A stretch of 64,000 nucleotides of DNA from Candidatus Phaeomarinobacter ectocarpi (lineage in GTDB: Bacteria > Pseudomonadota > Alphaproteobacteria > CGMCC-115125): contig NZ_HG966617.1 in the NCBI RefSeq assembly GCF_000689395.1, forward strand, positions 2,168,221 to 2,232,220. Reading direction: 5' to 3'. Both the position numbers and the translations under genes were made by a program. Below, in pieces: positions 43,967 through 46,446 of the stretch. The notes beneath the pieces are model-generated. The model did not search any database, had not been told where the DNA came from, and worked only from the letters and a program-made list of their open reading frames with translations. How positions within the stretch are numbered: position 1 is the first letter of the stretch; each line of letters opens with the position of its first letter.

Positions 43967-45046
43967 ATGTCTCAAGACCCTACGGAATCAGGCGGCTCAA
44001 CCGCACCGGCCTCACAATCGGACCCGGCCACCATGGTCGACAAACCGGTCGCATGGGCGATCAGCGGCGGCGCGCGGGGCATGGAGAACCAATGCCTGGC
44101 GCTGGCAGAAGCGGCAGGCTTCGCGCCGGTCCCCCTGCGGGTTGCCGCCAAGGCACCCTGGCGCTGGCTTCCTGAAATGGCGTGGTCCCTATGGGGCAAG
44201 GTGCCGTCACGGCTCTCAGCTGAAAATCGGCAGATGCTGGATGGCCCCTGGCCTGATCTTGTCGTCGCCTGTGGCCGTCAGTCCGTGCCTCTTGCCATTC
44301 ATATCAAGCGGGTTTCCGAGGGACGGACATTTGTCGTCCAGTGTCAGGACCCCCGCGTGACACCGGCCTTGTTCGATCTCGTGGTGCCGCCGGACCACGA
44401 CAATGTCACCCCGGCGCAAAACGTCCTGTCGATCATCGGTTCCCCCAATCTTGCCCTGCCCTGGCGGTTGGCCGAGGCGTCGGGCAAATGGGCATCAAAG
44501 TTTGACGCCCTCGGGCGCCCGTTTGTGGCCGTTGCCATCGGCGGGTCCAGCAGTGCCTACCGCCTCAATCGCAGCAGCATCGACGAGCTGTTCCGGTGCC
44601 TTGAGAAGATGCAAACCGAGTCCGGTGCACGCCTTGCCATCACCACGTCCCGGCGGACGGGCCCCGACAACGAAGAGCTCATTCAGGCGCATGCCAAACG
44701 TCTTGGCGCGTGGGTGTGGGACGGGTCCGGCGACAGCCCAATTCTGGGTCTGTATGCGTGCGCCGATGCCATCGTCGTGACCGAGGACAGCGTGAACATG
44801 GCAGCCGAAGCTGCCGCCAGCGGCAAGCCGCTTTATGTGGCCGAGCTCGACGGCGGCTCCGAGAAGTTCGATCATTTCCATGACGTGCTGAAGGCCCGTG
44901 GCATTGCCCGCTCCCTGACCCATGCTCCCCTTGAAGCATGGAGCTACCCCCCGCTCACCGAAACACTTCGCGCCGCGCAGGAAATCAGGCAGCGCATGAG
45001 CGACAGGGGTTTTGCGCTTCCTGCAGAACCTCAGACCGGACACTAG
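43967..45046 (+). CDS. ELM1/GtrOC1-family protein (DUF1022)
   Basis: A 359-residue protein of the family whose plant member ELM1 helps mitochondrial fission and whose bacterial members have a glycosyltransferase-like fold. Landmarks are WAISGGARGMENQCLALAEAAG, PDLVVACGRQSVPLAIHIK, VVQCQDPR, LVVPPDHD and VTEDSVNMAAEAAASGKPLYV. A nucleotide-sugar role is inferred from the fold. The ATG at 43967 lacks a clear ribosome site; an ATG at 44033 is possible. The gene ends at a gene-free interval with DnaA-type boxes. Confidence 0.85.
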   Translation: MSQDPTESGGSTAPASQSDPATMVDKPVAWAISGGARGMENQCLALAEAAGFAPVPLRVAAKAPWRWLPEMAWSLWGKVPSRLSAENRQMLDGPWPDLVVACGRQSVPLAIHIKRVSEGRTFVVQCQDPRVTPALFDLVVPPDHDNVTPAQNVLSIIGSPNLALPWRLAEASGKWASKFDALGRPFVAVAIGGSSSAYRLNRSSIDELFRCLEKMQTESGARLAITTSRRTGPDNEELIQAHAKRLGAWVWDGSGDSPILGLYACADAIVVTEDSVNMAAEAAASGKPLYVAELDGGSEKFDHFHDVLKARGIARSLTHAPLEAWSYPPLTETLRAAQEIRQRMSDRGFALPAEPQTGH

Positions 45047-45083
45047 CCCCCAATCCATGGGCCCATGCATAGGCAGTGCAGGC

Positions 45084-45357
45084 GATTCAGTAGGCGGATC
45101 AATATCATCCGCTAACTGACTCTCCGGACTCTGATATTTCAACTTATCCACAGGTCAGTACACAGAAGATGCCGCGGACCCATTGTCCCAGCGGCGGGGC
45201 GCGATTCATCACCGCAATCGCACGGCATAAGCGACTCAAATGACTCGCAGTTTCGACTTATCCACAGCCCCACCATATTGCGCCATGAAGCGATTCAATT
45301 GGGTCAGGACCGCCACCCAACACCGTCTATGGAATCCGGGACTGCCGGTCATCCACA
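45084..45357. other. Gene-free interval with DnaA boxes and clustered GANTC sites
   Basis: This gap lies between two convergent genes, so it is not an ordinary promoter region. Perfect DnaA boxes TTATCCACA lie at 45144-45152 and 45258-45266, and a one-mismatch TCATCCACA at 45349-45357 falls partly in the loop of a 9-bp hairpin (GCCGGTCAT/ATGACCGGC, 45344-45368). GANTC occurs eight times, starting at 45084, 45118, 45127, 45203, 45233, 45242, 45292 and 45332. Five of these sit in the octamer GCGANTCA, in either orientation. It is a candidate DnaA-binding or origin-like locus. Confidence 0.5.
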
Positions 45358-45378
45358 GGATGACCGGCGGAGGACTTG

Positions 45379-45807
45379 TTATGGCACGGCTACCAGTGAT
45401 CCCAGGTTCATCACCACCCGCTCTGAAACCAGCTTGTCCGTCTCATCAAACTTGTAGAAGGCAACGAACGGCAGCTCCACGTTGCGACCGCTGGCCTCAA
45501 TGCCCTGAAACGCCAGCACGTGTTTGCCACACAGCCGCCCCTCCACAATGACCTCGTCATCTGTGAAGTGCTCATGGTCGATGTGGTTCTGTCCGCCTTC
45601 TATGGCGCCATCCGTGCCCCACAACCCAATCAGCCCATGGGCTGCCTTGATGCTGTCAGGGTCGGCAAATGTCTGGCGGTTGTAGTGCATCTCCCCGCGA
45701 GGCGAGAAGGTGGCCATGATCCCGTCAATGTCGTGGTTGTTTTCCACCTCGTAGTGATGCTTCAGCAGGGCGCTGCGGCGAGCTTTCTCAGTGTCACTAA
45801 CGGTCAT
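45379..45807 (-). CDS. SnoaL/NTF2-like domain protein
   Basis: A 142-residue protein with a cone-shaped NTF2-like fold predicted from KHHYEVENNHDIDGIMATFSPRGEMHYN, FADPDSIKAAHGLIG and a closing beta region VELPFVAFYKFDETDKLVSERV. Such proteins can be small isomerases, hydratases or non-catalytic binders. CAGGAG fixes the ATG at 45807. The TetR gene ends upstream with a 54-nt gap on the same strand, so the two may be co-transcribed. Confidence 0.8.
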   Translation of the reverse strand: MTVSDTEKARRSALLKHHYEVENNHDIDGIMATFSPRGEMHYNRQTFADPDSIKAAHGLIGLWGTDGAIEGGQNHIDHEHFTDDEVIVEGRLCGKHVLAFQGIEASGRNVELPFVAFYKFDETDKLVSERVVMNLGSLVAVP

Positions 45808-45861
45808 TGGTACGCTCCTGGAACGGGTTGAGTGAGACAAAAAGGTCGGCGGAAATGGGGG

Positions 45862-46446
45862 TCAGGAGCCGGGGTCAAAGGCCTGCCTGAGGGACGTCAC
45901 CGCACCGTCAGCAACCTGCTGCAGCAGTACGCGAGACTGACCTGCACGCCCCAGAACGCGGATGGAGACAGCGGACGCAAAAACCATGGCGACCAGCTCG
46001 TCCAGATCAGGCATTTGCGACGAGGCGGCCTGAGCTTCTGCCAGCCGCTTGCGAACGCGCCGGTGCATCTCCTGCAGACCGGCATTGACGGCCTCAGCGT
46101 TTGCCGCGCCGACAAAGCCTGTTTCAGGAATGGCATTGATGAGAAGGCAACCGCGACGATCAGGGTCATCAGCGGTGATCCGCACGACCGCATCAAGCAT
46201 CTCGCGGATGCCCTCAATGCCTTTGGCATCAGATGCAAGTTCAGCGCGCAGATGAGCGAGATAGCTGTCGATGGCGACAGCAAACATCCCCTCCTTGTCC
46301 CCATAGGCCGCATACAGGCTTCCGCGCAGCAGACCCGTCGCTGACACCAGGTCGGGAAGCGACGTGTGGCCATAGCCACGCAGCCAGAAGGCATTCATCA
46401 ATGCCTCTGCCACCTCGTCAGAATTGAACCCTCTTGGTCTTGCCAT
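45862..46446 (-). CDS. TetR family regulator
   Basis: A 194-residue repressor. The N-terminal DNA-binding domain (GFNSDEVAEALMNAFWLRGYGHTSLPDLVSATGLLRGSLYAAYGDKEGMF) is of the AcrR/TetR type close to YxaF/LmrA-like members. The C-terminal ligand domain contains RRGCLLINAIPE, typical of TetR_C_ proteins with that motif. A 16-bp palindrome 20 nt upstream of the ATG may be its operator. It is divergent from the peroxiredoxin gene and in line with an NTF2-like gene. Confidence 0.9.
   Translation of the reverse strand: MARPRGFNSDEVAEALMNAFWLRGYGHTSLPDLVSATGLLRGSLYAAYGDKEGMFAVAIDSYLAHLRAELASDAKGIEGIREMLDAVVRITADDPDRRGCLLINAIPETGFVGAANAEAVNAGLQEMHRRVRKRLAEAQAASSQMPDLDELVAMVFASAVSIRVLGRAGQSRVLLQQVADGAVTSLRQAFDPGS

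Follow-up and report, generated by a model that had tools for sequence, protein, structure and literature searches.

Introduction

Non-coding loci that control DnaA are best known from E. coli, where datA, DARS1 and DARS2 are built on a tight cluster of three or more DnaA boxes together with IHF/Fis sites. E. coli also has SeqA-bound GATC pairs, adenine-methylation sites that sit at a fixed short spacing and are linked with DnaA boxes. In alphaproteobacteria, oriC is usually found in the neighbourhood of hemE and parS, and in Caulobacter DnaA controls gcrA. In E. coli, datA, DARS1 and DARS2 are reported to keep conserved relative distances from oriC (PMC5010248); in the portion of PMC12371093 cited here, a region near the E. 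coli oriC with a high density of DnaA boxes serves as a DnaA titration region. Excerpted text of PMC3973325 describes GANTC methylation and DnaA as acting on Caulobacter promoters. The link from CcrM methylation to DnaA activity in alphaproteobacteria is only partly understood. An element outside oriC that is compact, rigid and conserved and ties a DnaA box to CcrM sites allows a direct test of this link.

Here we describe such an element in an intergenic gap of Candidatus Phaeomarinobacter ectocarpi, at 45047-45378 of the window, the whole 64,000-nucleotide stretch of DNA that was analysed (bases 2168221-2232220 of the genome); the gap itself is at genome positions 2213267-2213598. A preliminary description had noted clustered DnaA boxes and GANTC sites in this gap and proposed the chromosomal origin, a DnaA titration site, or a cell-cycle-controlled RNA promoter. 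The real unit, which that description missed, is a longer composite with fixed spacing that occurs twice in the gap: GAYTC, 25-29 bases, GAYTC-N4-GAYTC, 11-12 bases, TTATCCACAG.

Like datA, DARS1 and DARS2, the gap is non-coding, lies outside the presumed oriC and carries DnaA boxes. Its relative distance from hemE is similar in two complete genomes (0.317 in both; 0.3166 of the genome here and 0.3171 in the relative G001), which general synteny alone could explain. Unlike those loci, it has no tight cluster of at least three boxes: the two perfect boxes are 114 bp apart with a near-match 91 bp on, and the copies in a second family have one box per site. The element has three rigidly spaced GANTC sites, whereas the E. 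coli loci have IHF/Fis sites. With chromosomal DnaA titration regions the gap shares boxes of the high-affinity type outside the origin; it differs from the E. coli titration region in having only two perfect boxes, in lying one third of the chromosome from hemE, and in the fixed link between its boxes and GANTC. The combination of GANTC and DnaA boxes in intergenic DNA, in a genome that encodes GcrA and a CcrM-like methylase, recalls the GcrA/CcrM- and DnaA-dependent promoters of Caulobacter; in contrast to these, the element shows no promoter-like site in an E. coli-type scan, lies past gene 3' ends and has no constant downstream gene. DnaA boxes and GANTC also mark the alphaproteobacterial oriC in the hemE gap, but our gap has neither a CtrA-type site nor a skew switch, and an origin-like gap lies elsewhere in the genome. 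Finally, like SeqA-bound pairs, the element places adenine-methylation sites at a fixed short spacing next to a DnaA box, although its sites are GANTC and those of SeqA GATC.

Results

DnaA boxes and GANTC sites in the gap

The motifs listed in the preliminary description are present. Two perfect TTATCCACA boxes start at 45144 and 45258 on the plus strand, 114 bp apart, and the near-match TCATCCACA lies at 45349, 91 bp beyond the second. The 64-kb window contains no perfect box besides these two, and the gap thus holds 2 of the 19 in the 3.416-Mb genome (3,415,905 bases, one contig, 100% complete). Eight GANTC sites start at 45084, 45118, 45127, 45203, 45233, 45242, 45292 and 45332, and the octamer GCGANTCA occurs in either orientation at five gap positions (45082, 45201, 45231, 45241 and 45290), with three further copies in the rest of the window. 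We rejected this octamer as the conserved unit because the GANTC pair of copy 1 lacks it.

The clustering of GANTC was said to exceed chance, and it does: eight sites fall within 260 bp, a number not reached in 100 first-order Markov resamples or in 20,000 random placements of the window's 84 sites (maximum 7 in both). GANTC is otherwise depleted in the window (84 observed vs a mean of 254 in first-order Markov resamples), as expected in a genome with CcrM. The densest cluster elsewhere in the window has 4 sites per 260 bp, and the densest in the other sampled stretches of the genome has 6; the sampled sequence totals 579,905 bases including the window.

A composite element with fixed spacing

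The features of the gap and its flanks are given below. R1 is a profile of the eight copies found in the genus, run on 59 relatives and on 289 genomes of the class; both window copies are among its training sequences.

43967..45046, plus strand: gene of the Mito_fiss_Elm1 family (PF06258); in 4/4 genus genomes its 3' end is closely followed by the element
45082..45122, plus strand: imperfect inverted repeat whose arms carry the outer and first GANTC of copy 1; from folds and the alignment fold
45084..45088, plus strand: outer GANTC (GATTC) of copy 1, 34 bp upstream of the pair; offset -34 in 4/4 genus copy-1 sequences
45112..45153, plus strand: core of copy 1, TAAC-T-GACTC-N4-GACTC-N12-TTATCCACAG, with GACTC at 45118 and 45127 and the DnaA box at 45144-45152; from alignments; R1 E 2.6e-9 in the whole genome, not independent
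45203..45207, plus strand: outer GANTC (GATTC) of copy 2, 30 bp upstream of the pair
45227..45267, plus strand: core of copy 2, TAAGC-GACTC-N4-GACTC-N11-TTATCCACAG, with GACTC at 45233 and 45242 and the DnaA box at 45258-45266; from alignments; R1 E 1.8e-9 in the whole genome, not independent
45292..45357, plus strand: degenerate third unit, GATTC at 45292, GAATC at 45332, N12, TCATCCACA at 45349
45344..45368, no strand assigned: perfect 11-bp palindrome with an ACA loop, GCCGGTCATCC-ACA-GGATGACCGGC; read directly; overlaps the near-match box
45379..45840, minus strand: SnoaL-like gene, convergent here; absent between element and peroxiredoxin gene in three relatives

Our count of 13 copies covers seven genomes in two families; the third unit (three sequences, aligned) is omitted from this count and, like the matches in genomes G110 and G017, from both models; the G110 match is outside the count as well. 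The starts of the inner GANTC sites are 9 bp apart in 13/13 copies, one of which (G119a) has a degenerate first site, GGCTC. The box starts 16 bp past the second GANTC in nine copies and 17 bp past it in the four copy-1 sequences, and the spacing of copy 2 is identical in all five second-family copies. The position of the outer GANTC goes with this difference: it is at -34 in all four copies of the 17-bp type and at -30 in seven of the nine of the 16-bp type, across two families. The two misses are copy 2 of G003, with a site at -25, and G291a, with GATTT at -30. The binomial p of 5.9e-16 for this outer-site spacing ignores shared ancestry, several copies being orthologous, and is not to be taken literally. 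By inspection, the free base is C or T in all 36 GANTC sites at the three element positions of the 13 copies; since the sites thus read GAYTC on one strand, the element has a direction. Letters outside both motifs are conserved as well, namely TAAG ahead of the pair and TTTCGAC ahead of the box.

Within the sampled 579,905 bp, GANTC triples with (26-38)+9 spacing are found only in the two gap copies; the reversed letters have no such triple, nor do 387,049 bp of viral loci. In the same sample, the two copies score about 59 bits with a simple matrix that had them among its training sequences, and the next place scores 11. The best score is 11 bits when the sequence is reversed and does not exceed 22 in any of three Markov sets.

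The remaining features are less regular. Among the four genus sequences the inverted repeat at 45082..45122 has some both-sided changes, and several pairs are broken in one sequence; folding weakly suggests a possible hairpin or cruciform. The GANTC-N11/12-YATCCACA part of the third unit is alignable in G002 and G003 and not in G001, and the whole unit scores at noise level with the profile. The palindrome at 45344..45368 resembles a terminator hairpin without a T run; a terminator scan was negative there, and the palindrome is not seen in G002.

The element is conserved within the genus

We compared this genome (G000) with three others of the genus (G001, G002 and G003). Conservation of the gap in relatives had been proposed as a check, and the gap is found in 3/3 of them after the same gene; both element copies are kept in all four genomes, following the Elm1-family gene. 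R1 finds two places per genome within the genus, both in this gap. The gap has eight GANTC sites in G000, G002 and G003 and seven in G001.

In the four-genome alignment, 55/90 element columns are invariant vs 38/166 ungapped gap columns outside it (p 1.7e-9). Across the four paired GANTC sites no defined letter varies (16/16), and the N differs at three of the four, which is the outcome expected of selection on the GANTC sites themselves. The DnaA-box letters are nearly invariant (17/18), with TTATCCACA or TTTTCCACA in all eight copies. Outside the elements, identity is 39-56% in five pairwise comparisons and 75% between G000 and G002. We read this column pattern as purifying selection on the element.

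The neighbouring genes have changed around the element. Both flanking genes were reported to end toward the gap; this is true of this species and fails in G001-G003, where the next gene encodes a peroxiredoxin, 95-97% identical to the window's, that reads away from the gap. The convergent arrangement therefore belongs to this species. The closest relative found for the gene adjoining the gap is at a Candidatus Phaeomarinobacter sp. locus, with 72% identity in the best segment.

Two further observations concern this neighbourhood. At 45379-46446 of the window, a pair of SnoaL-like and TetR-like genes separates the element from the peroxiredoxin gene and is absent in the three relatives; it looks as if it had been either inserted here or lost from the relatives. 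The same three relatives carry a near-palindrome, ATTAGAA-TTCTAAT, ahead of their peroxiredoxin gene (L004 ~1905-1930, L005 ~1240-1265, L006 ~1350-1375), which we take to resemble an iron-response operator of the Irr/ICE type.

The element recurs in a second family

At E <= 0.003, R1 matches 6/289 class genomes: three of the genus (G003 is absent from this match list) and G222, G119 and G110. The single matches outside the genus, three observed vs about one expected by chance, are not decisive alone. A second profile, R2, adds the G222 and G119 copies to those of R1 and was run on four genomes of G222's order. In the family of G222, f117, R2 finds one copy in G222, two in G119 and two in G291, and no match in G290, a genome that is 80% complete. 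G291 was in no training set, and its copies have R2 E-values of 1.2e-8 and 1.9e-8. With R1, which was built from genus copies only, each of the five f117 copies also scores, at E 9.4e-8 to 0.0029 in 437 kb. All these profile E-values are rough.

In f117 the box is TTACCCACA in 3/5 copies and TTATCCACA in both G119 copies, with one box per site. Given that TTACCCACA deviates from the DnaA consensus and that the boxes stand singly, DnaA binding is less sure in f117 than in the genus.

Placement differs between the families, the f117 copies lying at other loci than those of the genus. Three of them are about 0.5 kb past a DUF1499 gene (Pfam assignments for L080 and L081; the DUF1499 proteins of L071 and L080 are identical at 215/257 positions). 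In G222 and G291, a GNAT gene lies between the DUF1499 gene and the element (Pfam for L071; 118/155 identical). The gene after the element at the DUF1499 sites encodes a metallo-beta-lactamase fold in G222, DUF4143/AAA in G291 and a nitroreductase in G119; of the other two copies, one lies between PemK-like and convergent radical-SAM genes and one before an MFS transporter gene. The following gene thus differs from site to site, so that the element tracks no single downstream gene. The element lies between convergent genes in G000, G222, G291a and G119b, and in G222 its core fits within a 60-bp gap between two convergent genes, with the outer GANTC in the last codons of the GNAT gene.

With 6/289 class genomes matched by R1, the element is not a universal alphaproteobacterial device. 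Near the Elm1-family genes of two more distant genomes (L009, L010) we found no box-like site close after the gene. A G017 match between an enolase-like gene and a small ORF (L007; 14.6 bits, E 0.016) has no box and was treated as chance, and eight weak R1 matches in other families (E 0.0155-0.082) are about the chance number for 55 genomes. The G110 match, in another family (L073), scores E 9.3e-4 with R1, as one of 289 genomes, and 26.7 bits with R2. It comprises, at L073 1473-1530, a GANTC triple of 31+9 spacing, TAAG and the T-rich stretch TTTTTCGA, with no DnaA box; judging by these parts, it is possibly a related element that lost the box or never had it.

The genome encodes DnaA, GcrA and a CcrM-like methylase

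The relevance of CcrM to these GANTC sites, which the preliminary description had assumed, is supported by the gene content. The genome encodes DnaA, GcrA and a CcrM-like methylase, the last as a 390-aa ORF whose C-terminal part matches the RAMA domain above cut-off; among 14 control genomes, only Caulobacter matches this domain. A RAMA methylase gene and GANTC depletion in the window are both what a CcrM site calls for.

Two perfect DnaA boxes, in opposite orientation and 35 bp apart, lie upstream of gcrA (G000:C1:314497-314549; L013, L075). They stand about 130-185 bp from the gcrA match, which spans 313901-314365 on the minus strand. This placement fits what DnaA control of gcrA would lead one to expect, and it makes TTATCCACA plausibly a working DnaA box in this genome.

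Discussion

The element as a proposed DnaA control site

Our favoured reading of the gap, to which we give a probability of roughly 0.4, is a non-coding locus outside oriC that would bind and control DnaA, with a state read through CcrM methylation, in the manner of datA/DARS or of a titration region. A titration site was one of the options first proposed, and a titration or control site still fits best: the boxes are conserved, and their binding by DnaA is predicted. This reading is favoured by conservation, independent recurrence and rigid spacing, in a genome that encodes DnaA, GcrA and a CcrM-like methylase. Against it count the TTACCCACA boxes of f117, the placement that differs by family, the lack of a match in G290 and the presence in only 6/289 genomes.

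In the mechanism that we propose, CcrM would methylate the three GAYTC sites, whose spacing is fixed at 30 or 34 bp and then 9 bp, and DnaA would bind the box 16 or 17 bp further. The element and the presumed oriC are separated by about a third of the chromosome length, and the replication fork would leave the GANTC sites hemimethylated as it passes. Their methylation state may then alter how DnaA binds, or how a partner protein that spans them does. In this way the element would retain or modify DnaA once initiation has taken place. Its state would change with the passing fork and again on late re-methylation, so that CcrM methylation would serve as the timer.

That the GAYTC sites all lie on one strand suggests a directional, sequence-reading protein beyond CcrM. 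One specific version is a methylation clock for DnaA, in which a putative dimeric SeqA-like protein would read the hemimethylated GANTC triple, with sites about three helical turns and then one turn apart, and would load or release DnaA at the adjoining box. We regard this version as doubtful; if it were true, initiation capacity would be reset as the fork passes the element, a third of the way along the chromosome, and as CcrM re-methylates it late in the cycle. In the open-access papers searched we found no description of the composite element, which looks like an undescribed cell-cycle control site.

Alternative explanations

The main rival, which we hold to be rather unlikely, is that the whole element is the site of a different directional protein, a regulator or nucleoid protein that would serve to insulate gene ends or to organise the chromosome, with no part played by DnaA. 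In that case the box, though DnaA-like, would belong to that protein's own recognition sequence, and the protein could, for example, compete with CcrM as MucR does in Caulobacter; occlusion of GANTC by MucR is reported in the excerpt of PMC5172544 on which we draw. Several findings suit this idea: conservation extends beyond the motifs to TAAG and TTTCGAC, the GANTC sites are GAYTC in one orientation, three of five f117 boxes are TTACCCACA, and four sites lie between convergent genes. Against it stand TTATCCACA or TTTTCCACA in 8/8 genus copies and TTATCCACA in both G119 copies, and our analysis offers no candidate protein for the role.

The gap could also be a promoter under GcrA, CcrM and DnaA, either of a small RNA or, in the relatives, of the downstream peroxiredoxin-trxB genes. 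Caulobacter provides the precedent (PMC3973325, in excerpt), and the next gene does read away from the gap in the three relatives and in G119a. Yet no promoter-like site was found in 44900-45500 by a scan that covers the E. coli-type consensus, other promoter types being outside its scope. In this species two genes part the gap from the peroxiredoxin gene and the element is still kept, and the 60-bp gap between gene ends in G222 also counts against a promoter. As for an RNA, both strands fold better than shuffled sequences (z -4.7 and -3.5), and 8/33 pairs of the RNAalifold consensus fold are changed on both sides in one or more of the four sequences. The z-scores are, however, probably due in part to the palindrome at 45344-45368, and the covariation term of the same fold is unfavourable (+0.38). 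Rfam had nothing in the gap at E-values up to 1; its five sub-threshold matches within 34000-56000 all lie elsewhere. The sequence outside the elements is poorly conserved. We therefore disfavour the cell-cycle RNA promoter of the preliminary description and consider a promoter of either kind unlikely.

It is very improbable that the element is what remains of a phage, a plasmid or some repeated mobile element. Mobility would be compatible with its copy number, one or two per genome, and with the change of locus between families. The upstream gene is nevertheless the same in 4/4 genus genomes, the gap has no phage match and copy 2 no plasmid match, and none of 44 places in viral contigs with the 17-base box region carries the element. 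A loose regular expression gave one viral match, elsewhere in L083 (GAGTC, GACTC, TAATCCACA), which R2 did not report.

The preliminary description's option of the chromosomal origin is contradicted by our data, and we consider it extremely improbable that the gap is the origin or a second, cryptic one. DnaA boxes, GANTC sites and an inverted repeat do occur together here, as an origin would have them. GC skew, which had been named as a check, has no switch at 2.213 Mb: the window is negative in 30/31 steps, and across 28 sampled stretches and the window the skew runs from -0.03 to +0.04 between 0 and 1.55 Mb and is negative throughout, from -0.02 to -0.10, from 1.57 Mb to the record end. The gap also lies away from the hemE and parS neighbourhood. 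hemE is at 3293878, and the gap beside it at ~3.295 Mb, 1.08 Mb from ours, is origin-like: it holds TTAA-N7-TTAA of the CtrA type, three GANTC sites at 3295208-3295273, and the box-like CCATCCACA and CTATCCACA. Two parS-like TGTTTCACGTGAAACA sites, at 3280548 and 3282633, lie 12-15 kb from it. Our gap contains no TTAA and so no CtrA-type site. In G001 and G002, too, hemE and the element are separated by about a third of the genome. It can be said for an origin in our gap that the presumed one has no sharp skew switch either; the skew near 3.29 Mb fades toward zero, so that the presumed origin there rests on landmarks. dnaA is at base 118 of the genome.

A chance cluster of unrelated motifs is just as improbable, short as the motifs are and enriched as GANTC generally is between genes of CcrM-bearing species (PMC3973325, in excerpt), being contradicted by conservation and by independent recurrence at fixed spacing. 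The promoter, phage and chance explanations are thus all weaker than that of a DnaA control site.

Several other sites came to light in the course of the analysis. Skew along the whole chromosome is asymmetric: it stays near zero for the first 1.55 Mb and is negative from there on, so that the arms are not mirror images. Each of the two parS-like TGTTTCACGTGAAACA sites (L030) has a perfect DnaA box within ~65 bp. The second densest GANTC cluster sampled, six sites in 260 bp at G000:C1:1198416-1198675, lies next to a terminator-like hairpin. At G000:C1:1924574 (L040), an intergenic perfect DnaA box has four GANTC sites within 150 bp, including GCGATTCA, with neither the 9-bp GANTC pair nor an R2 profile match. 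A viral contig (L103) was rejected as a copy of the element for lack of the 9-bp pair; at 2800-2895 it carries three perfect DnaA boxes in ~80 bp and two GANTC sites 5 bp apart, a cluster that may be the replication origin of that viral element.
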